A stretch of 64,000 nucleotides of DNA from Bacteroides sp. Marseille-P3684 (GTDB lineage: Bacteria > Bacteroidota > Bacteroidia > Bacteroidales > Bacteroidaceae). The stretch's first letter is position 1. Each line of letters begins with the position of its first letter. The position numbers were made by a program, and so were the translations under genes. The stretch is from assembly GCF_900291465.1 (NCBI RefSeq), contig NZ_LT985808.1, forward strand, positions 1,768,408 through 1,832,407, given 5' to 3'. Of the stretch, positions 12,960 to 60,713 are shown piece after piece. The notes beneath the pieces are model-generated. The model saw only the letters and a program-made list of their open reading frames with translations, was not told the origin of the DNA and ran no database searches.

Positions 12960-13495
12960 CTTGACGGAAGTGCGGAAAGAGGTCTTTTCAGCTGACGCGT
13001 CCTTTTCAAGAATCCGATAATCTGGAGATGAAACGTGAATGATTGCAAACGAAACGCCTGAAAAAAGCCTCTGATTTTAGAAAACTATACATTTCATTTT
13101 CGAAAAACAGACAAAACGTGCCCGGAACAATATTGTTTCGCGAGCCAAACAATATAGTTTGACGCGTCAAACAATATAGTTTCATGTCCCAAACACGATT
13201 GTTTCGTGCCCGGAAGTCAAATCTTTGGAAAATGAAACGCAAAAACACCGGGTTTCATTCTCCAGAAGGAGTGCGGTGTCAATAAATCGGAAGCTTTCAT
13301 AAAGCGCGGTTCAGGAAGTGGAAAGCATCCGTCAGGAAAGGTTCTGTGCTGGGATACTTCCTGCATGACAGCCTCTAGGTCGAATGGATGGCAATGTGTA
13401 TTTTGCGAATCGCCTGAGAAGGGCCTCGGAATCCACCGAATCGTATTTTGGTGCGAGGAAGGGGCGTGTAGAGCGGTTCATTTGACACTTTGACA
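12960..13495 (+). repeat. Dispersed 540-bp element, copy A, with 22-bp-pitch dyad array
   Basis: Noncoding copy of a dispersed element (others at 60178-60713 and inverted at 49066-49610). It starts at CTTGAC and ends near TTTGACACTTTGACA. Inside, 14-bp units start at 13081, 13103, 13125, 13147, 13169, 13191, 13213 and 13235, exactly 22 bp apart. The best are AAACAATATAGTTT (twice), GAACAATATTGTTT and AAACACGATTGTTT; the outermost units are weak. Spacers are always 8 bp: for example cgcgagcc, gacgcgtc, catgtccc, with cgtgcccg on both sides. The right part (about 13398-13480, AATGTGTATTTTGCGAATCG onward) is strongly conserved in copy B. Short open frames across it are not conserved between copies. 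Confidence 0.85.
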
Positions 13496-13725
13496 GAATC
13501 GGGGGTATGACAGGCTCCGTCCGTCTGTCGAAGCCTACTATATAATAAGGTATAAAGGGAAAAGCCTGAACGCTGTCAAGATGTCACTCCTGTCAGTCGC
13601 AGCTGTCAATATGGAGCCCTCAATCACCTTTGGCACACTTTTCGTTGAAAGAATAGTACCGACCCGGAAAAGAGGGGCGGCAGAGATAACCGATTAAATA
13701 ATAAAATTCTAAAAATATAGGAACT
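13496..13725 (+). other. groES upstream region, no gene seen
   Basis: About 230 bp between the dispersed element and groES. I see no open frame worth calling, no CIRCE heat-shock operator (TTAGCACTC-N9-GAGTGCTAA) and no clear TAnnTTTG promoter. Several TGTCA/TGTCAA words recur between 13500 and 13610. The AT-rich stretch just before the groES ATG is a plausible ribosome-loading region. Confidence 0.4.
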
Positions 13726-30164: not shown

Positions 30165-31892
30165 ATGAAAATCAAATTGATGTGTGCGCTTTGTGCGCTT
30201 TTGCTTTTGTCGTCGTTCCGGTCCGATGAACGCGACACCATTACAGTTTTCATGATTGGAGATTCTACCATGGCAAACAAACCCCTGGGAGGTGACAACC
30301 CCGAACGTGGCTGGGGGCAGATGCTTGCCGGTTACTTCACCGAGGATGTCCGGGTGGACAACCATGCCCTCAACGGACGCAGTTCGAAAAGCTTCATCGA
30401 CGAAGGTCACTGGGAGGAAGTGCGTCGGCTGATTCGTCCGGGCGACTACGTGTTCATCCAGTTCGGGCATAACGATGAAAAGCCGAAGCCCGACCGCCAT
30501 ACCGACCCCGGCACGACATTCGACGCCAACCTGCGTCGGTTTGTCGAGGAGACACGTGCCAAGGGAGGCAAGCCGGTGTTGCTCAACTCCATCGTCCGCC
30601 GGAACTTCTTTGACAACAAGCAGGCTGTGACGGATGACGACCTGCGCCGTGAGAAGGTGGAAGGAACGAAACTCGAAGGCGACACGCTGATTGATACCCA
30701 CGGGGCTTACCTCGACTCTCCGCGCAACGTGGCTGCTGCCATGGATGTCCCCTTCATCGACATGAACCGGCTGACACATGACCTCGTGCAGGGATTGGGA
30801 CGCGAAGCCTCGAAGTCACTCTTCTGCTGGATTCCCGAAGGAACCTGTGTGGCCTGTCCGAAGGGCCGTCAGGACAACACCCACCTCAATGTCTACGGTG
30901 CACGCCGGGTGGCAGGTCTGGCAGCAACCGCCATCGAGCAGGTGATTCCCGAGCTGGGCAAGTATGTGCGTCACTATGACTTTGTCGTGGCAAAAGACGG
31001 AAGCGGCGACTTCTTCACCGTGCAGGAGGCCATCAATGCCGTGCCCGACTTCCGCAAGAACGTCCGCACGACCATCCTGGTCCGTCCGGGTGAATACAAG
31101 GAGCGCGTCATCGTGCCGGAGTGCAAAATCAACATCTCCCTCATCGGTCAGGAAGGAGCCATCATCACCAACGACGGCTATGCCAGCAAGAAGAACCGCT
31201 TCGGTGAAGAGATGTCGACGTCCGGCTCTTCGACCTGCTACATCTATGCTCCCGACTTCTATGCCGAGAACATCACCTTTGCCAACACGGCAGGACGCGT
31301 CGGTCAGGCAGTTGCCTGCTTCGTGAGTGCGGACCGTGCCTACTTCAAGGGCTGCCGTTTCCTGGGCAATCAGGACACCCTCTATACCTATGGCAAGGGT
31401 TGCCGCCAGTATTACGAAGACTGCTACGTGGAAGGAACGGTGGATTTCATCTTCGGATGGTCGACGGCAGTGTTCAGCCGCTGCACCATCCACAGCCTGG
31501 GGAAAGGCTACCTCACTGCTCCGTCGACCGACAAGGAGCAGAAGTACGGTTATGTGTTCTATGACTGCAAGATGACTGCCGAGCCGGGTGTGGAGGGAGT
31601 CGCCCTGTCCCGTCCGTGGCGTCCGTATGCCAAGGCAGTGTTTGTCCGTTGCGATCTGGGCGGACACATTGCGCCTGCCGGCTGGGACAACTGGGGCAAG
31701 AAGAGCAACGAGGAAACCGTGACCTACGCCGAGTATCAGAGCACCGGAGCCGGTGCCCGTCCGTCTGAACGCGCCTCGTTCGGTCATCAGCTGAAGGACC
31801 TCACCGGCTACAGCATCGAGGAAGTGCTGGGAGGCACCGACGGCTGGAACCCCGTGAAGAACGGAAATGCGCTGGTGAGCGTGAAACGCTGA
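30165..31892 (+). CDS. Fused rhamnogalacturonan acetylesterase (CE12) - pectin methylesterase (CE8)
   Basis: 575 residues with a signal peptide. Residues about 25-260 form an SGNH esterase: IGDSTMA (Ser 34), NGRSSKSF, QFGHNDEKP and DNTHLNVYGA (catalytic Asp/His), the CE12 pattern. From about 268 a right-handed beta-helix pectinesterase begins (VVAKDGSGDFFTVQEAINAV), with GNQDTLYTYG, EGTVDFIFG (catalytic Asp residues) and LSRPWRPYA. Together they remove acetyl and methyl esters from pectin, opening it to lyases. A -7 element, TACATTTG, lies at 30099-30106. It precedes the GH31-GH2-GH3 genes but is separated from them by a terminator and a repeat array. Confidence 0.93.
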   Translation: MKIKLMCALCALLLLSSFRSDERDTITVFMIGDSTMANKPLGGDNPERGWGQMLAGYFTEDVRVDNHALNGRSSKSFIDEGHWEEVRRLIRPGDYVFIQFGHNDEKPKPDRHTDPGTTFDANLRRFVEETRAKGGKPVLLNSIVRRNFFDNKQAVTDDDLRREKVEGTKLEGDTLIDTHGAYLDSPRNVAAAMDVPFIDMNRLTHDLVQGLGREASKSLFCWIPEGTCVACPKGRQDNTHLNVYGARRVAGLAATAIEQVIPELGKYVRHYDFVVAKDGSGDFFTVQEAINAVPDFRKNVRTTILVRPGEYKERVIVPECKINISLIGQEGAIITNDGYASKKNRFGEEMSTSGSSTCYIYAPDFYAENITFANTAGRVGQAVACFVSADRAYFKGCRFLGNQDTLYTYGKGCRQYYEDCYVEGTVDFIFGWSTAVFSRCTIHSLGKGYLTAPSTDKEQKYGYVFYDCKMTAEPGVEGVALSRPWRPYAKAVFVRCDLGGHIAPAGWDNWGKKSNEETVTYAEYQSTGAGARPSERASFGHQLKDLTGYSIEEVLGGTDGWNPVKNGNALVSVKR

Positions 31893-31924: not shown

Positions 31925-31957
31925 AGGGTGTGTCGTCATGAGCGATGCACCCTTTTT
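31925..31957 (+). terminator. Terminator after the CE12-CE8 gene
   Basis: AGGGTGTGTCG pairs imperfectly with CGATGCACCCT around a short loop, then TTTTT. Confidence 0.7.
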
Positions 31958-31994
31958 ACATAAAAGGGCGGTATACATTTCGGACACACCCGCC

Positions 31995-32273
31995 AGACAT
32001 TCGTGTTTGACTGGGCAAACACAAGTCTTTGACCGGGTAAACACAAGCGTTTGACTTGTCAAACTCATTAGTTTGATAGGGGTAAGTATCATACTTAGCT
32101 TGGAAAGGTATCATACTTAGCCTGGAAAGGTATTATACTTAGACCCCCTAAGTATAATACTTAGGCAGCCTAAGTATTATACTTTGGTCTATTAAACTAC
32201 TATGTTTGTCAGGTCAAACGCTTGTGTTTGGCAAATCAAACACTTGTGTTTCATCCGTCGGACAATTGTGTTT
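31995..32273 (+). repeat. Array D: 13 dyads at 22-bp pitch upstream of GH31
   Basis: Thirteen 14-bp dyads start at 31995, 32017, 32039, 32061, 32083, 32105, 32127, 32149, 32171, 32194, 32216, 32238 and 32260. Steps are 22 bp with one of 23. Outer units are AAAC...GTTT types (AAACACAAGCGTTT, AAACTCATTAGTTT, AAACACTTGTGTTT). The central five switch to AAGTAT-n-ATACTT (TAAGTATCATACTT, TAAGTATAATACTT). Spacers are 8 bp and mostly different. Unlike copies A-C there is no conserved flanking sequence. A possible -7 box for the GH31 gene (TAAGTTTG, 32335-32342) lies 60 bp beyond the last unit. No gene lies in the 509-bp gap. Confidence 0.85.
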
Positions 32274-32401
32274 GCCGGGGGAAAGTCATGTATGAAATTG
32301 AGCGAAAGATAATTCATAAATGAAGAATAAAGTGTAAGTTTGTCAATGTATAGACCTTTTCTCTAAATACGGAATGAAAACAACAGTTTAAAAGAACATA
32401 T

Positions 32402-35365
32402 ATGAACTATAAGCATTTATTATTGACCGTCGGCTTACTCCTGGGAGTCTGTTCCATGACCCGTGCCGGCAATTATGTCAAACAGGGCAATACGGTGACA
32501 GTGACCGTCACTTCCCCACAGGACAAGGGTGCCCGAAAGGTACGGCTTCAGGTGATTGGCGACAAGATTGTCCGGGTGGAAGCTACTCCGGAAGCAGACT
32601 TCCCGGTGAAGCAGAGCCTGATGGTCGTCAGTCAACCGGACTTCAATGATTTTCAGGTCACCGAGACCGAGGATGCCGTGCAAGTGAAGACACGTGCCGT
32701 CTGTGCTACCGTCAGTAAGACCGACGGACGGGTGGTGTTCCGTGACGGGAAAGGACATCTGCTGCTGGCAGAGACAGCCCGGGGAGGAAAAGTCTTCACG
32801 CCCTTCCGGGTACCGGAGCGGGAAATCGGAGTCGGCACGTTGACCGAACAGCAACGCAACGCCTGGTCGTGGCAGATGAAGTTTGACAGTCCCGTCGATG
32901 AGGCTTTCTACGGACTGGGACAACACCAGTCGGGAGAGCTGAACATGAAGGGAAAGAATGAAGACCTGTTCCAATATAACACGAAGGTGAGTGTACCGTT
33001 TGTGGTGAGCAACCGGGGCTACGGACTGCTCTGGGACAGCTATTCCTACTGTCGCTTCGGCAATCCGGAAGACTACCTGCAGCTGAACCGCGCCTTTACC
33101 TTATATGATAAGAACGGGCAGGAGGGAGCGTTGACAGGAACCTATACGGATAAGGCGGGACGGACGTTGGTACGTCGGGAAGACAGCCTCTATTTCGAAT
33201 ATGCTTGTCCGGAGACGTCGGAGCTGTGCCGGAAATACGACCGTGGCGGTCTTGCCAACCTGCCGCAAGGTTTCCAGCTGGACGGGGCAAAGGTCGTCTA
33301 TGAAGGCTCGTTGCTGGCGGAGGGAGACAGTCCGTCCGCAACCTTTCACTTTATCCTTTATTATGCCGGTTACATAAAGGTGTTCGTCGATGGCAGGGAA
33401 GTGGTTCCGGAACGTTGGCGCACGGCGTGGAATCCCAATGCGTGGAAGTTCGCCTGCCGCCTGCGTACGGGAGTGAGAATCCCCGTCCGGATTGAATGGA
33501 GACCCGACGGCGGCGTCAGCTACTGCGGACTGCGTGTCGCACAGCCGCGCAGTGAGGAAGAACAAGGCAAGCTGAGCGTATGGAGTGAGATGAGCCGCGA
33601 CATGGACTACTACTTCATAGCCGGCGATAACCTGGACGAGGTGATAGCAGGCTACCGTGCCCTGACGGGAAAGGCACAGGTGATGCCCCGCTGGGTCATG
33701 GGGTTCTGGCAGAGCCGGGAACGCTACAAGACAAGCGACGAGATTGTCCGTACCCTGGCAGAGTTCCGCCGCCGTCACATCCCGGTAGACAACATCGTGC
33801 AGGACTGGAACTACTGGCCCGAAGATGCATGGGGAAGCCATGAGTTCGAGTCCGTCCGTTACCCCGACCCACAGGCAATGCTCGACAGCGTGCATGCCCT
33901 GCACGGGCGCTTCATGATTTCCGTCTGGCCCAAGTTCTATTGTTCCACAAAGAATTACCAGGAGCTTGACGCTCACGGATGGATGTACCGTCAAGCCGTG
34001 ACAGACTCCATCAAGGACTGGGTCGGACCGGGCTATGTAGGCTCGTTCTATGATGCCTATGCCGAAGGAGCGCGGAAGATGTTCTGGCAGCAGATGGATG
34101 AGAACCTCTATTCCAAGTACCAGCAAGGCATCGATGCCTGGTGGATGGATGCCTCGGAACCCAATGTCAGGGACTGCACGCCCATGTGGTATCGCAAGGC
34201 GTTGTGCGGACCGACGGCGTTAGGTTCTTCCACCGAATACTTCAATGCGTACAGCATCGTCAATGCCGATGCCATATACAACGGACAGCGTTCCGTGAAT
34301 CCGGACCGACGGGTGTTCCTGCTCACACGCAGTGGCTTTGCCGGAGAACAGCGATACGGCACAGCCACCTGGAGCGGTGACATCGCGACCCGTTGGGAAG
34401 ACATGCGTGCCCAGATGACTGCCGGCATGAACTTCTCGCTCGCCGGTATCCCGTTCTGGGGAATGGACCAGGGTGGCTTCTGTGTAGAGAAACGTTACGT
34501 GGCTGCTCAGAAACTGTTTGACTCGACCGGGCAGGAGAACGAGGACCTGAAGGAGTGGCGTGAGCTGCAGACCCGCTGGCATCAGTTCGGTTGCTTTGTC
34601 CCCTTGTTCCGTACACACGGACAGTGGCCCACGCGTGAAGTGTGGAACATTGCTCCCGAGGACCATCCCGCTTATCAGAGCATTGTCTGGTATGACCGTC
34701 TGCGCTACCGGCTGATGCCTTACCTCTACAGCCTGGCAGGAGCCGTCCACTTCAGGGACTATACGATGATGCGTGCCCTCGTGATGGATTTCAATGGCGA
34801 TGCAAACGTCTATGACATCAAGGACCAGTGGATGTTCGGTCCGTCGTTGATGGCTTGTCCCGTCGGGTATTATCAGGCACGTTCCCGCCGCGTCTATCTG
34901 CCGGAGCAGTGTGGCTGGTATGATTTCTATACCGGACGTTACCATGCAGGCGGGCAGACCATTACGGCTGAGGCACCTTACGAGCGCATCCCGGTCTATG
35001 TCCCTGCCGGGAGCATCCTTCCTTTCGGTCCGGAGATGGAGTGGAGCGATGAGAAGCCTGCCGAGTTGATAAACCTGTATGTGTACACCGGACGTGACGC
35101 TTCGTTTACGCTTTATGAGGACGAGAATACGAACTACGGTTACGAGCGCGGACATTATGCGACCATCCGCTTCAGCTACAACGAGGCAACGGGGGAACTG
35201 ACCATTGCTGACCGGAAGGGCCGTTTCGACGGCATGTTGCAACGGCGCCGCTTCAATGTGGCCGTGGTGAGTCCGGCAAAGGCACAGCCACTGGACCTCG
35301 ATGCTCCCCAAGGCACGATGGTGGACTATGACGGAAAGGCCGTAACGGTGAAAATTGTAAAGTGA
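32402..35365 (+). CDS. GH31 alpha-xylosidase-type enzyme with PA14-like insert
   Basis: 987 residues, secreted (LLLTVGLLLGVCSMTRA). N-terminal beta-sandwich (YGLGQHQSGELNMKG, LLWDSYSY), a PA14-like insertion at about 290-385 (FHFILYYAGYIKVFVDGREV), then the barrel. The nucleophile is Asp 583 in WWMDASEPN and the acid/base Asp 660 in TWSGDIATRWED. The PA14 insert is the arrangement known from the alpha-xylosidases of Bacteroides xyloglucan loci, which remove xylose from xyloglucan oligosaccharides; alpha-glucosidase is the main alternative. First of three genes with 4-bp gaps, preceded by the repeat array D. Confidence 0.9.
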   Translation: MNYKHLLLTVGLLLGVCSMTRAGNYVKQGNTVTVTVTSPQDKGARKVRLQVIGDKIVRVEATPEADFPVKQSLMVVSQPDFNDFQVTETEDAVQVKTRAVCATVSKTDGRVVFRDGKGHLLLAETARGGKVFTPFRVPEREIGVGTLTEQQRNAWSWQMKFDSPVDEAFYGLGQHQSGELNMKGKNEDLFQYNTKVSVPFVVSNRGYGLLWDSYSYCRFGNPEDYLQLNRAFTLYDKNGQEGALTGTYTDKAGRTLVRREDSLYFEYACPETSELCRKYDRGGLANLPQGFQLDGAKVVYEGSLLAEGDSPSATFHFILYYAGYIKVFVDGREVVPERWRTAWNPNAWKFACRLRTGVRIPVRIEWRPDGGVSYCGLRVAQPRSEEEQGKLSVWSEMSRDMDYYFIAGDNLDEVIAGYRALTGKAQVMPRWVMGFWQSRERYKTSDEIVRTLAEFRRRHIPVDNIVQDWNYWPEDAWGSHEFESVRYPDPQAMLDSVHALHGRFMISVWPKFYCSTKNYQELDAHGWMYRQAVTDSIKDWVGPGYVGSFYDAYAEGARKMFWQQMDENLYSKYQQGIDAWWMDASEPNVRDCTPMWYRKALCGPTALGSSTEYFNAYSIVNADAIYNGQRSVNPDRRVFLLTRSGFAGEQRYGTATWSGDIATRWEDMRAQMTAGMNFSLAGIPFWGMDQGGFCVEKRYVAAQKLFDSTGQENEDLKEWRELQTRWHQFGCFVPLFRTHGQWPTREVWNIAPEDHPAYQSIVWYDRLRYRLMPYLYSLAGAVHFRDYTMMRALVMDFNGDANVYDIKDQWMFGPSLMACPVGYYQARSRRVYLPEQCGWYDFYTGRYHAGGQTITAEAPYERIPVYVPAGSILPFGPEMEWSDEKPAELINLYVYTGRDASFTLYEDENTNYGYERGHYATIRFSYNEATGELTIADRKGRFDGMLQRRRFNVAVVSPAKAQPLDLDAPQGTMVDYDGKAVTVKIVK

Positions 35366-35369
35366 ACCG

Positions 35370-37820
35370 ATGATGAACACATGGAATCTTGGATTACGGA
35401 AGGCACTGCTGCTGATAGCCGCCTTCTGTTCGGTGGCGTGTCAGGCACGCGATGTCAGGCTCTTTGACGAAGGCTGGCTGTTCCTGTTGGGCGACGAGCC
35501 GGAGATGGCACAACCCGGTTATGACGACAGCCGGTGGCGTCAGTTGTCGCTGCCGCATGACTGGGCGATAGAGGGTGACTTCTCGGCAACGAACCCTTCG
35601 GGAGTGGGAGGCGGTGCCTTGCCCGGTGGCGTCGGGTGGTATCGCAAACATTTCAGGTTGCCTGCAACGGAAGGGGAGCGCCGTTACTATCTCGCGTTCG
35701 ACGGGGTATACATGAACTCCACCGTGTATGTCAACGGACATGAGGTCGGTTCCCGTCCCTACGGTTACAGTTCGTTTGAGTATGACCTGACGCCCTACGT
35801 CCGTCGGGACAGCGACAACGTGGTGGCGGTCAGGGTGGATAACAGCGACCAGCCCAATTCCCGTTGGTACAGTGGCTGTGGCATTTACCGTCATGTCTGG
35901 CTGACGGCAACGAGTCCCTTGCACATTGCCCGCTGGGGTGTCCATGTGGTGACAGACGTCGGAGGTACCGTCGATGTGGAGCTTGCCGTTTCCGGCGATG
36001 CGGACGGTCAGCACCGGCCGGTGTTCCGTCATACCCTTCTTGCCCCTGACGGACGTACGGTCGCCGTGACGTCGGCAAAGTCGTTGCGGCAAAAGCTGCG
36101 TGTAAGGCATCCGTTACGGTGGTCGGTCGACAGCCCGCATCTCTATACCCTGAAGTCAGAGGTGCTGGTCGATGGAGAAGTTGTCGATGCCGTGACCACG
36201 CGGACCGGGTTCCGTGAGTTCCGCTTTGATGCCGCGACCGGTTTCTGGCTCAACGGACGCAATCTGAAAATCAATGGCGTGTGCCTGCATCATGACCTGG
36301 GCTGTCTGGGAGCGGCGGTGAATGAAGACGCGATGTGCCGTCAGCTGGTGAAATTGAAAGCGATGGGGTGCAATGCCATACGGTGCAGTCACAATCCTCC
36401 TGCGCCCGAACTGCTGGACCTGTGCGATGAGATGGGGTTCATCGTGATGGACGAGAGCTTTGACATGTGGCGTCGTCGGAAGACCCGGAATGACTACGCC
36501 CGTTTCTTTGACAAGTGGCACGAACGGGACCTGTCGGACCTGCTCCTGCGGGACCGTAACCATCCCTCTGTCCTGGTGTGGTCCATCGGAAACGAGGTAC
36601 TGGAGCAGTGGAGCGGTGTCGGTGCCGATGAGCTGACGCTCGAACAGGCGAACCTCCTTCTGAACGCCGGACACGATGGCTCCACGCTGGCACACGGCGA
36701 GGAACTGACTCCCAACTCACTGCTGACCCTGCACCTGGCAGGGATTGTGCGGAAGTATGACCGTACACGTCCCGTCACGGCAGGATGCAATGAACCGTCT
36801 CCCGACAATCACCTCTTCAAGAGCGGTGCACTCGACCTCATTGGTTTCAATTACCATCGTGAGTGGATCAAAGATGTTCCGTGCAATTTCCCCGGCAAAC
36901 CGTTCCTGCTCACCGAGAGTGTCTCTGCCCTGCAGACACGCGGCTATTACCGGATGCCGTCGGACAGCCTGTTCATCGCTCCGGAACGTTGGGACAAACC
37001 CTATACGGACCCGTCGATGATGTGCTCGTCCTATGACAACCAGCACGTCCCGTGGGGCTCGACCCACGAAGAGACCTGGGACATTGTCAAGCATACGCCC
37101 TATTGTGCCGGGCAATTCATCTGGACGGGCTTTGACTACCTTGGCGAGCCGACTCCTTACGGCTTTCCTGCCCGTAGCAGTTACTTTGGCATCATCGACC
37201 TGGCGGGCTTCCCCAAAGACATCTATTATATGTATCAGAGCGAATGGACCGACCGTCCCGTGCTGCACCTGTTCCCTCACTGGAACTGGACGGAAGGACA
37301 GACGGTGGACCTCTGGTGCTATTACAATGACGCCGATGAAGTGGAGCTGTTTGTCAATGGCAAGAGCCGGGGCGTACGCTCCAAAAAGGACAGCCATCAG
37401 TACCACGTAGCCTGGCGGGTCGCCTATGAGCCCGGTGAAGTGAAAGTGGTGGCGCGTAAAGGCGGACAGGAAGTGCGTTCCTCGTCCATCCGTACCGCAG
37501 GAGCACCTGCCCGCATCCGGCTTGAAGTGGACTATGAAGGCGAGACGACCGTCTTTGTCAATGCGTATGTCACGGACGAAGCCGGCAACCTCTGCCCCTG
37601 GGCGGAAGATGACTTGCGGTTCAGCGTATCCGGAGGGACTGTCATCGGTGTGGACAATGGCTCTCCGACCAGTATGGAACGTTTCAAGGCTGACCACCGC
37701 AAAGCCTTCTTCGGCAAGGCACTGGTGGTTATCCGGAAAGATAAAGATGCCGGACCAATCCGGCTGGAGGCTGTAAGTCCGATGCTTGCAGCCGGACAAC
37801 TTGTAATCACGAACAATTAG
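35370..37820 (+). CDS. GH2 beta-galactosidase-type glycoside hydrolase
   Basis: 816 residues with a signal peptide (KALLLIAAFCSVACQA). Sugar-binding sandwich (LSLPHDWAIEGDFSATNPSG, VYMNSTVYVNGHEVGSRPYGY), immunoglobulin-like domain, then the barrel with KINGVCLHHDLGCLGAAVN. The acid/base is Glu 409 in WSIGNEV and the nucleophile Glu 516 in LLTESVSA. C-terminal Ig-like modules follow. The motifs fit beta-galactosidase; beta-glucuronidase or other GH2 activities cannot be excluded. Beside an alpha-xylosidase and a GH3, it could remove galactose from xyloglucan side chains. Starts 4 bp after the GH31 stop; a second ATG is one codon in. Confidence 0.9.
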   Translation: MMNTWNLGLRKALLLIAAFCSVACQARDVRLFDEGWLFLLGDEPEMAQPGYDDSRWRQLSLPHDWAIEGDFSATNPSGVGGGALPGGVGWYRKHFRLPATEGERRYYLAFDGVYMNSTVYVNGHEVGSRPYGYSSFEYDLTPYVRRDSDNVVAVRVDNSDQPNSRWYSGCGIYRHVWLTATSPLHIARWGVHVVTDVGGTVDVELAVSGDADGQHRPVFRHTLLAPDGRTVAVTSAKSLRQKLRVRHPLRWSVDSPHLYTLKSEVLVDGEVVDAVTTRTGFREFRFDAATGFWLNGRNLKINGVCLHHDLGCLGAAVNEDAMCRQLVKLKAMGCNAIRCSHNPPAPELLDLCDEMGFIVMDESFDMWRRRKTRNDYARFFDKWHERDLSDLLLRDRNHPSVLVWSIGNEVLEQWSGVGADELTLEQANLLLNAGHDGSTLAHGEELTPNSLLTLHLAGIVRKYDRTRPVTAGCNEPSPDNHLFKSGALDLIGFNYHREWIKDVPCNFPGKPFLLTESVSALQTRGYYRMPSDSLFIAPERWDKPYTDPSMMCSSYDNQHVPWGSTHEETWDIVKHTPYCAGQFIWTGFDYLGEPTPYGFPARSSYFGIIDLAGFPKDIYYMYQSEWTDRPVLHLFPHWNWTEGQTVDLWCYYNDADEVELFVNGKSRGVRSKKDSHQYHVAWRVAYEPGEVKVVARKGGQEVRSSSIRTAGAPARIRLEVDYEGETTVFVNAYVTDEAGNLCPWAEDDLRFSVSGGTVIGVDNGSPTSMERFKADHRKAFFGKALVVIRKDKDAGPIRLEAVSPMLAAGQLVITNN

Positions 37821-37824
37821 CTAT

Positions 37825-40023
37825 ATGAGTACTATGAAACGATTGAAGATGATGGCAATGGCCCTAATGATGGGAGCCTCTGCCCTGGCGCAGGTCCCTG
37901 CGTATCTGGATGACTCACAACCGCTCGAAGTGAGGGTGCAGGATGCGCTGAGCCGCATGACGACACACGAGAAAATACAGCTTCTGCATGCACAGAGCAA
38001 ATTCACTTCGGCAGGAGTGCCCCGTTTGGGTATCCGTCAGCTGAACATGGACGACGGACCTCACGGGGTACGTGAAGAGTTGGAATGGAACACGTGGAAG
38101 CCGGCGCGGTGGACCAATGACTCGGTGGTAGCGTTCCCGTCGCTGACGTGCCTCGCTGCCACATGGAACCCGGAGCTGTCGGCAGTCTATGGCAATGCAG
38201 TGAGCGAGGAGTTTGCCTTCCGGGGCAAGGACGTGATGCTGGGCCCCGGCGTGAACATGGCACGTACACCGCTCAACGGACGCAACTTTGAATACATGGG
38301 GGAGGACCCGTACCTGGCAGGACACATGATTGTGCCTTACATCCGGAGTGCGCAGGCAAACGGGGTAGCGTGCTGCCTCAAGCATTTCGCATTGAATAAT
38401 CAGGAGATTGACCGCTTTGCCGTCAATGTCAATGTGGACGAGCGTACGCTGCATGAAATCTACCTGCCGGCATTCAAGGCTGCGGTGCAGGAAGGCGGCG
38501 TGTGGACGGTGATGCCGTCGTATCCTCTTTGGAACGGGATACATTGCTGTCAGAATGACTCGTTGCTGAACGGCATCCTGAAACGCGACTGGGGCTTTGA
38601 CGGAGCAACCATCAGCGATTGGGGCGGCACGACGGACACCTGGCAGGCGGCTACCGGCGGACTGGACATCGAGATGGGAACCTTCACCGACGGGAAGGTG
38701 AAGGAGGCAGAGTTCGGTTACGACGACTATTACCTGGCAGACAAGTTCGAGAAGCTGATTGATGAAGGCAAGATACCGATGTCGGTACTTGACGACAAGG
38801 CTACGCGAGTCCTGCGTACGATTTTCCGAACGTCGATGAATCGACAGAAGGTCATTGGCTCACTGTGTTCCGAGGCGCACTATGATGCCTGTCTGCGGAT
38901 TGGTGAGGAAGGTATCGTGTTGCTGAAAAATGCGGAGGACATGCTGCCCTTGGATTTCAATCGGTATGAGCGTATCCTGGTGGTGGGCGAGAATGCCGTG
39001 CGTTCCCTGACGAAGGGAGGCGGTTCTTCGGAACTGAAGACCCTGCACGACTGGTCTCCGTTGGAGAGTCTGCAAAAACGGTTTGGAGCAAAGATTGATT
39101 ATGCCCAAGGCTACAGTTCGGGCAGAGCCATGTATGACAAGGTAGACCCGGTGGACCCGGCGTTGAGCCGTCAGCTGAAGGCAGAGGCGCTGGAGAAGGC
39201 CCGTCAGGCAGACCTCATCCTCTTCATTGGCGGCATGAACAAGAACTGCCGGCAGGATTGTGAAAACTCCGACCGGGAGAACTACCACCTGTCTTTCGGA
39301 CAAGATGAGCTGATTCAGGAACTGGCAGCCATCCAGAAGAACATCATTGTATGTACCTTTGGCGGCAATGCATTTGCGACCCCTTGGATTGACGAGGTGA
39401 AAGGATTTGTCCATGCCTGGTACCTGGGTTCCATGGCAGGAGAAGCCCTGGTCCGTGTGCTCGATGGTACGGTGAACCCCAGTGGCAAACTGCCCGTCAC
39501 TTTTGCCAGACGTCTCGAAGACTATCCTTTTATGGAATATGGAGCGGAAGCCTATCCGGGCGTAAATAAGCAGGTTTACTATAAGGAAGGCATCTTCATG
39601 GGTTACCGTCACTTTGACACTCGCAAGGTGAAACCGCAGTTCCCTTTCGGCTACGGATTGAGTTATACGACGTTTGAGTATGGCAAGTCACGCCTCTCCT
39701 CCAAGACCCTTTCGGATGGCAAGATTGTCCTGTCCGTGGACATCACCAATACAGGCAACCGTGCCGGTAAAGAGACGGTGCAGTTGTACATCGGACAGCG
39801 CAAACCCTCGGAAGTACGTCCTGTCAAAGAGCTGAAAGCCTTTGAGAAGGTCGAGTTGCAGCCCGGTGAGACGCGGACCGTCGAGTTCTCCATTGACCGG
39901 TCGATGCTGTCCTTCTTCTCGGCAAAGAGCCATGACTGGGTGGTAGAGCCTGGACGTTTCGATGCCTATGTCTGTGCTTCCTCAGCCGATGTACGCGGAC
40001 AGGCGGACTTCCGGGTAGAGTAA
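37825..40023 (+). CDS. GH3 beta-glucosidase-type glycoside hydrolase
   Basis: 732 residues with a signal peptide (MALMMGASALAQ). Barrel domain: LNMDDGPHGVREE, GRNFEYMGEDPYLAG, CCLKHFALNNQE, and the nucleophile Asp 265 in ATISDWGGTTDT. A second alpha/beta domain (LFIGGMNKNCRQDCENSDRE) and a fibronectin type III-like C-terminus (FPFGYGLSYTTFEYG, GKETVQLYI) complete the usual architecture. Beta-glucosidase is the most probable activity; beta-xylosidase is possible. Last gene of the operon, 4 bp after GH2; a dyad at 40035-40101 may end transcription. Confidence 0.92.
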   Translation: MSTMKRLKMMAMALMMGASALAQVPAYLDDSQPLEVRVQDALSRMTTHEKIQLLHAQSKFTSAGVPRLGIRQLNMDDGPHGVREELEWNTWKPARWTNDSVVAFPSLTCLAATWNPELSAVYGNAVSEEFAFRGKDVMLGPGVNMARTPLNGRNFEYMGEDPYLAGHMIVPYIRSAQANGVACCLKHFALNNQEIDRFAVNVNVDERTLHEIYLPAFKAAVQEGGVWTVMPSYPLWNGIHCCQNDSLLNGILKRDWGFDGATISDWGGTTDTWQAATGGLDIEMGTFTDGKVKEAEFGYDDYYLADKFEKLIDEGKIPMSVLDDKATRVLRTIFRTSMNRQKVIGSLCSEAHYDACLRIGEEGIVLLKNAEDMLPLDFNRYERILVVGENAVRSLTKGGGSSELKTLHDWSPLESLQKRFGAKIDYAQGYSSGRAMYDKVDPVDPALSRQLKAEALEKARQADLILFIGGMNKNCRQDCENSDRENYHLSFGQDELIQELAAIQKNIIVCTFGGNAFATPWIDEVKGFVHAWYLGSMAGEALVRVLDGTVNPSGKLPVTFARRLEDYPFMEYGAEAYPGVNKQVYYKEGIFMGYRHFDTRKVKPQFPFGYGLSYTTFEYGKSRLSSKTLSDGKIVLSVDITNTGNRAGKETVQLYIGQRKPSEVRPVKELKAFEKVELQPGETRTVEFSIDRSMLSFFSAKSHDWVVEPGRFDAYVCASSADVRGQADFRVE

Positions 40024-49048: not shown

Positions 49049-49065
49049 ACGCCATCCGGACTGTT

Positions 49066-49610
49066 TGTCATAATGTCAAAATGTCAAATGAATCGCTCCG
49101 CAGTGCCCTTCGTTGCACCCGAATACGAGTTGGTGGCTGAAAAGGGCATTCTGGAGCGATTCGCAAAATACACCGTGTCAGGTGTAGAGTAGTATTTCCT
49201 TTCCTTTTGAACGCTTTCCGGGGGATTGTCTTCTTCCGAAGTGAGTTGTATCCTTTCTTATGTTCCCTTTTAATAGCTTCCGATTTGTTGACGCCGTTCA
49301 TCTTCCAGCAAGCGAAACCTGCACTTTTTGCCTTTTAGTTTCCGAAGATTTGAGTTTTGCGGACGAAACAATATTGTTTGGAAGGTGAAACAATATTGTT
49401 TGACTCGTCAAACACTTGTGTTTCGCACGTGAAACAATATTGTTTGAGCCTCAAAATGTAAGTATTTCGAAAATGAAATGTATAGTTTTCTAAAATCAGA
49501 GGCTTTTTAAGCCGTTTTTGTTCACAGACGTTTGCTTTTGCTTGCTGGTTTGACGGAAATCTGCAAAGTATGCGTTAGCCGAAAAACGTGTTTTTGTCGG
49601 TTTTGTCAAG
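49066..49610 (-). repeat. Dispersed 540-bp element, copy C (inverted), with dyad array
   Basis: Reverse-complement copy of the element seen at 12960-13495 and 60178-60713. Its left end is TGTCATAATGTCAAAATGTC and its right end GTCAAG overlaps the stop codon of the Fur-family gene. Units start at 49366, 49388, 49410, 49432, 49454 and 49476, again 22 bp apart: AAACAATATTGTTT (three times), AAACACTTGTGTTT, AAATGTAAGTATTT and AAATGTATAGTTTT. Near the left end a long hairpin is clear (GAATCGCTCCGCAGTGCCCTT at 49090-49110, AAGGGCATTCTGGAGCGATTC at 49143-49163). The block around 49460-49500 is nearly identical to copy A. No gene is called inside. Confidence 0.85.
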
Positions 49611-60177: not shown

Positions 60178-60713
60178 CTTGACAGAATCAGCAAAATTCC
60201 TCTTTCCTGCTAACACGCCTTTTTCAAAAAGCAGTCCAACCGGAAGCCAACCGTGAATGAATGCAAATAAAAACGAGGGAAAAAGGCTTCCATTTTAGAA
60301 AACTATACATTCTATTTTCGAAAAACAGGCAAAACGTGCCCGGAACAATATTGTTTCGCGCGCCAAACAATATCGTTTGCCGCCTCAAACAATATAGTTT
60401 CACCTGCCAAACACGATTGTTTCGTGCCCGGAAGTCAAATCTTTGGAAAGTGAAAGCGAAAAATCCGGAGTTTCACTCTCCAGAAGGAGTGCCGTGTCAA
60501 CAAATCGGAAGGTAGCAAAAAGGGATGGCTGTGGAGTGACGAGTGTCAGGAATGCCATGATGACCGTCACCCGGCTTTCTGGATGACACCGTCTGATGCC
60601 CAGATGCAGCAATGTGTATTTTGCGAATCGCCTGAGAAGGGCCTCGAAATCCACCAAATCGTATTTGGGTGCAAGGAAGGGCACTGTCGAGCGCTTCGTT
60701 TGACAAAATGACA
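60178..60713 (+). repeat. Dispersed 540-bp element, copy B, with 22-bp-pitch dyad array
   Basis: Same orientation as copy A. It begins CTTGACAGAATC and ends TTTGACAAAATGACA. Units start at 60299, 60321, 60343, 60365, 60387, 60409 and 60431; the clear ones are GAACAATATTGTTT, AAACAATATCGTTT, AAACAATATAGTTT and AAACACGATTGTTT, in the same order as copy A. The spacers cgtgcccg are identical to copy A, the others differ (cgcgcgcc, gccgcctc, cacctgcc). The right part (TTTTGCGAATCGCCTGAGAA onward, from about 60618) is almost the same as copy A. Frames over this region (85 and 108 codons) are not conserved in the other copies. Confidence 0.85.

Follow-up and report, generated by a model that had tools for sequence, protein, structure and literature searches.

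Several repetitive chromosomal sites have been described that resemble the DNA studied here. Within the Bacteroidales, Porphyromonas gingivalis carries BrickBuilt, which the passages describing it present as a minisatellite of intergenic regions, particular to the species and contained in a MITE, with a 23-nt tandem unit in 1-23 copies per element and 19 dispersed copies; the same passages also mention 22-nt tandem repeats in strain W83 (PMC4596501). In Escherichia coli, the terminus macrodomain is marked by the MatP sites matS, a 13-bp palindrome present in tens of copies in the terminus region, and the SlmA-binding sites of nucleoid occlusion are 12-bp palindromes that occur in 50 copies and are absent from Ter (PMC3116907). 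REP and BIME sequences are numerous dispersed extragenic palindromes near gene ends (PMC3733652).

Our analysis concerns an array of short dyads in a window of 64,000 nucleotides, the whole stretch analysed, from Bacteroides sp. Marseille-P3684. The closest described repeat is BrickBuilt, which shares with the arrays of this genome the order Bacteroidales, the intergenic position, the short tandem unit, species specificity and dispersal (PMC4596501), but which fails on unit length and on ends. Its unit measures 23 nt, whereas the arrays here step by exactly 22 bp (126 genome-wide pairs and the window array), and its leader and tail carry IS5-like terminal inverted repeats (GAGACC... and ...GGTCTC), whereas the long arrays here have defined ends, TCCGGACATTTGCG... 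and ...AAAGTCCGGAC, with a short common TCCGGAC motif. The passages on BrickBuilt further describe one unit family with no fixed core number and report no chromosomal zoning (PMC4596501), in contrast to the fixed three or four units of the pure arrays here and to their zoning. As working analogues, matS and SlmA sites would come closest. Like matS, the AAGTAT-type dyads are palindromes with a free central base in tens of copies enriched at the terminus, but matS sites are single, scattered GTGACRNYGTCAC sequences confined to Ter, whereas AAGTATNATACTT forms tandem trios at 22 bp that are enriched there and not exclusive to it. The four-unit AAAC arrays are, like SlmA sites, depleted near the terminus, but SlmA sites (GTGAGTACTCAC) are absent from Ter, whereas the AAAC arrays have another sequence, stand in tandem and are depleted only partially. 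We claim membership in neither class, since sequences and tandem form differ. REPs are single hairpins of 20-40 bp, bearing a GTAG or CGTC tag, maintained through compensatory change and associated with a RAYT transposase, in contrast to the loop-poor dyads at a fixed 22-bp pitch found here, which show no sign of hairpin selection.

The window array (Table 1) consists of 13 dyads, four of AAAC type (centres 32001.5, 32023.5, 32045.5 and 32067.5) followed by five of AAGTAT type (32090, 32112, 32134, 32156 and 32178) and again four of AAAC type (32200.5, 32222.5, 32244.5 and 32266.5). Start-to-start steps are 22 bp throughout except for one of 23 bp, and the centres shift by half a base where the dyad type changes because AAAC dyads are even and AAGTAT dyads odd in length. 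Dyad mapping and a shuffle test thus confirm the unit number and pitch given by an earlier sequence-only reading: a nine-unit chain at pitch 22 scored 46 of 54, whereas the best of 1000 shuffles reached 35 and the other pitches from 16 to 29 gave 30-33. Strong four-unit chains across the whole window were essentially confined to pitch 22 and its 33/44 harmonics. The same reading had given the central dyads as AAGTAT-n-ATACTT; the type is right and three of the five are perfect, but the other two carry one mismatch each. The outermost dyads are weaker, with 4/7 and 3/7 complementary pairs, and the right-flank units have position-homologous units in ~14 other long arrays.

Table 1. Features of the window array and its neighbours, in window positions.
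Feature	Position	Strand	Basis or remark
Left flank, four AAAC-type dyads AGACATTCGTGTTT, AAACACAAGTCTTT, AAACACAAGCGTTT, AAACTCATTAGTTT	31995..32074	.	pitch 22
Core, five dyads of AAGTATNATACTT type (three perfect, two AGGTATNATACTT)	32084..32184	.	pitch 22
Right flank, four AAAC-type dyads AAACTACTATGTTT, AAACGCTTGTGTTT, AAACACTTGTGTTT, GGACAATTGTGTTT	32194..32273	.	pitch 22
Decayed 'B end' of long-array family, consensus TCCGGACATTTGCGTTTGA, here GCCAGACATTCGTGTTTGA	31988..32009	+	15/19 match
Decayed 'A end' of long-array family, consensus GCCGGGAGAAAGTCCGGAC, here GCCGGGGGAAAGTCATGTA	32275..32293	+	14/19 match
Pectinesterase and GDSL lipase/acylhydrolase gene	30165..31892	+	Pfam; upstream neighbour
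Terminator-like hairpin of pectinesterase gene, GGGTGTGTC...GATGCACCC then TTTTT	31926..31957	+	read from sequence
GH31 gene	32402-35365	+	Pfam; downstream neighbour
GH2 gene	35370-37820	+	Pfam; downstream neighbour
GH3 gene	37825-40023	+	Pfam; downstream neighbour; the three genes together 32402..40023

Genome-wide searches place this array among dozens, a point missing from the sequence-only reading. With three mismatches allowed, the 3.7-Mb, nearly closed genome yielded 126 pairs of AAGTATNATACTT dyads with a spacing of exactly 22 bp (113 exact) and 0 in a reversed-pattern control. Array loci were listed by exact cores, and 120 of the pairs fell into 46 arrays; the total is ~49 arrays, ~3 of them unplaced. 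Since only 6 of the 126 pairs lie outside this list, few imperfect copies are likely to have escaped it. About 31 arrays are pure, with exactly three AAGTAT cores, and ~15 resemble the window copy in being long composites, in which AAAC units flank 1 to 17 AAGTAT cores; these are copies of each other, position by position. At one of them (L192, ~1.4438-1.4442 Mb), 17 near-identical AAGTAT cores form a clear minisatellite-type expansion. A separate AAAC family occupies 42 loci with four units, AAACACTTGTGTTT beside AAACAATATTGTTT, the number being exactly four in all 20 loci inspected; the reversed-pattern control for AAAC (181 of 287) is invalid, because the inter-unit TTTG..CAAA matches the pattern too. 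Four-unit arrays (L310-L329) lie in unusually large AT-rich gaps, with GC of ~0.37-0.42 inside surroundings of 0.55, and sometimes adjoin low-scoring AT-rich ORFs. Counted together, intergenic arrays with a 22-bp step number well over 100. The 540-bp element, of which the window holds copies at 12986-13500, 60250-60690 and, inverted, 49060-49560, forms a family dispersed in ~40 copies, carries an AAAC array of its own as well as a distal segment that is conserved (AATGTGTATTTTGCGAATCGCC...), and shows no gene-end bias. Its conserved flanks are indeed absent at the window array, and arrays of each dyad type occur alone, which bears out the earlier claim that array and element are separable. By eye, no target-site duplication was seen at the decayed ends of 15 long arrays. 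Neither the AAGTAT nor the AAAC pair matched in viral contigs, and a phage origin was rejected on this ground.

In the pure arrays, selection acts on the core. All 31 hold three perfect AAGTAT cores in which the central base is free, and every array combines a spacer from one G-rich class with a spacer from a second, the classes being sorted by eye (GGCAGGC/GGTAGGC/GGCTGCC and GGGTGCC/GGGGGTC), in free relative orientation. Outside this centre the 22-bp register persists in degenerate form (TGGTCcGTc tAagCCggGcTT.tatc.cgTc taTcCC...), the information falling over successive units from 0.63 to 0.44, 0.17 and 0.07 bits and, by six units, to 0.03 bits per base; three-core arrays thus have no sharp ends. 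Decayed flanks around an invariant core argue that the core is old, constrained and selected rather than freshly copied. That the symmetry itself is selected, as had been suggested, is a weaker proposition, since covariation between dyad arms within copies reaches just z of about 2-3.5, with relatedness as a confounder.

We then examined relatives, for which TRF and tandem-lag scans (lags 15-40) were decisive and dyad-only scans too noisy. AAGTAT pairs were absent from 14 congeners, and among 399 genomes of the family only 2, the own one included, contain exact pairs. At gyrB, a close MAG (L092) carries the same array in the same place. In L091, a more distant MAG of the Prevotellaceae, four AAGTAT dyads stand at 22-bp pitch in a convergent gap, their spacers unrelated. 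Around gyrB, 30 genomes gave eight arrays of lag 22 (one in the own genome), two of lag 21 and none of other lags; flanks of GH31 gave six of lag 22 (again one in the own genome) and none of other lags. A further ~1 Mb of other stretches held 23 arrays of lag 22, five of lag 21 and two of lag 23; block shuffling left none, and 87 kb of DNA from other families contained none either. Their dyads differ: AAGATTTAAATCTT occurs in two congeners, AACGCTTAAGCGTT, AAAGCTATGCTTT and others elsewhere, and CATATG within CGAGC...GCTCG is another at 22 bp. The 22-bp step is therefore kept in relatives while the sequence changes, and the earlier remark on dyads preserved across changed letters holds in related species; at the orthologous gyrB and GH31 loci, relatives have either no array in that place or one with other dyads. 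Lag-22 arrays in the stretches are modestly more dyadic than those of other lags (p=0.03), and not every 22-bp repeat of the relatives is clearly palindromic. One genome from another genus of the family (G023; L122:333-630 and L121:1051-1227) bears, in a span of 100 kb, several 22-bp arrays that differ from each other, and in one array two dyad types adjoin each other.

Within the own genome, the arrays lie between genes, at their 3' ends. All 45 AAGTAT arrays examined for context are intergenic, in 20 convergent, 24 co-directional and one divergent gap, compared with 9, 30 and 12 among array-free gaps; convergent against divergent, 20:1 versus 9:12, gives Fisher p=5e-4. Orientations come from home-made gene calls, and AAAC arrays were left out of these statistics, as gene calls are unreliable at some AT-rich loci. 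The 45 proteins adjoining three-core arrays fall into 91 Pfam families, of which the most repeated, MFS and OmpA, occur three times each. The rarity of divergent context and the diverse housekeeping neighbours mark these as gene-end elements, not promoters.

The two pure families are also zoned differently along the chromosome. Sign changes of sampled GC skew put the origin near 0.36 Mb and the terminus near 2.3 Mb, about opposite; dnaA lies at 2.947 Mb, far from the skew origin. Three-core arrays gather within 0.6 Mb of this terminus (20 of 31 versus 10 expected, p=3e-4; Rayleigh p=2e-4), and four-unit AAAC arrays avoid it (6 of 42 versus 13.6 expected, p=0.012); between 1.9 and 2.9 Mb there is just one, at 2.199 Mb. 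Compared directly, the positions differ at Mann-Whitney p=2e-5, a post hoc figure, as the zoning was seen first and tested afterwards on the same data. GC content falls unusually steeply from ~0.59 in the majority of stretches around the skew origin to ~0.42 near the terminus (L259-L278), so that a bias of insertion or retention could mimic zoning. The differing distributions make the earlier proposal of two binding proteins for the two dyads plausible.

What, then, might the arrays do? The sequence-only reading had placed the window array just before a carbohydrate operon and linked the two. GH31, GH2 and GH3 do follow, but a pectinesterase gene equally precedes, and the array lies past its terminator-like hairpin (which the scan used for sigma-70-like promoters did not flag). 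A role as local operator for GH31-GH2-GH3, recognised by one or two sugar-use regulators, would suit the array's position ~130 bp ahead of the GH31 start codon; we nevertheless consider this very improbable, because the ~49 family copies adjoin unrelated genes, divergent promoter regions are nearly avoided (1 of 45), the scan of the locus saw no sigma-70-like promoter, and the GH31 gene of congeners lacks AAGTAT arrays. The 31 sister arrays stand beside diverse housekeeping genes with no carbohydrate theme, so the proposed link finds no support, an operon-specific operator was rejected, and the sugar-gene neighbourhood looks incidental. The gene-end position raises instead the idea that the arrays act as RNA, as transcribed palindromes serving as terminators, 3'-end stabilisers or REP-like elements. 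Terminator-like hairpins nearby fit this, as does the RNA fold predicted for the entire array, which is very stable (z -11.8 and -10.0), but tandem palindromes must fold well, and the fold is a by-product. In the transcribed direction G-U pairs show no excess (70, versus 84 C-A mismatches), a copy's two flanks resemble each other no more than random partners do (z -1.0 to 1.7), the two spacers of an array are less complementary than shuffled pairs, and 16 array loci gave no Rfam match. Without G-U excess or flank co-evolution, an RNA hairpin or long cis palindrome was discarded, recognition is argued to occur on DNA, and selection looks DNA-level; an RNA role is accordingly improbable. Curved DNA through phased A-tracts is not favoured either, as AAGTAT cores, judged from their sequence, have no A-tract.

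Our preferred reading, to which we give roughly a 40% probability, is that the window array is a copy of an interspersed family of DNA-level sites, bound cooperatively by dimers and probably organising the chromosome. Each dyad would receive one dimer of a sequence-specific protein, and 22 bp, being two helical turns, would align the dimers along the same face of the helix, making cooperative binding possible. The working core would be a trio of AAGTATNATACTT dyads or, in the second family, four AAACNNNNNNGTTT dyads, and the window copy would be a composite of both types. Gene-end sites all round the genome suggest action at chromosome scale, which may be domain marking, compaction or the coordination of segregation with division, and terminus-gathered AAGTAT arrays with terminus-avoiding AAAC arrays could parallel the division of labour between matS and SlmA sites in E. 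coli. Points against a chromosome-site reading include the presence of AAGTAT pairs in so few family genomes, since a vital system would usually be conserved more widely, rapid co-evolution of protein and site excepted, and the minisatellite behaviour of long arrays, up to the 17 near-identical units of L192. Both lead to the main rival, a possible and somewhat less probable one, that the arrays are neutral or selfish minisatellites like BrickBuilt, spread and expanded by slippage and recombination, turned over as families between species and intergenic only through selection against genic insertion. Species-restricted families, variable unit number, long arrays with defined ends and a common motif, and the published relative in P. 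gingivalis, as its passages describe it (PMC4596501), all speak for such an origin. It does not, however, account readily for pure arrays that have a fixed number of perfect cores, decayed flanks and no sharp boundary, or for the avoidance of divergent regions and the different zoning of two families; the decayed long-array ends inspected by eye and the viral contigs offered neither target-site duplications nor a carrier, and slippage alone does not predict a strict 22-bp step across sequence-unrelated families.

For readers of genomes, one caution is that arrays beside CAZyme operons are not necessarily operators. In the open-access literature searched we found no account of the 22-bp rule in this group and no macrodomain system described in Bacteroidales. 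Somewhat unlikely, though worth stating, is the broader idea that members of the family mark their chromosomes with dyads at a 22-bp step whose letters are rapidly replaced, with one type here marking the terminus half and another the rest, as an address code read by co-evolving proteins. A spacing rule that outlives sequence points either to a geometry read by proteins that track the changing letters or to a process that builds 22-bp palindromic repeats, and either would be new for the Bacteroidales, a dominant gut group. The zoned families offer concrete candidate sites for chromosome organisation in this order.
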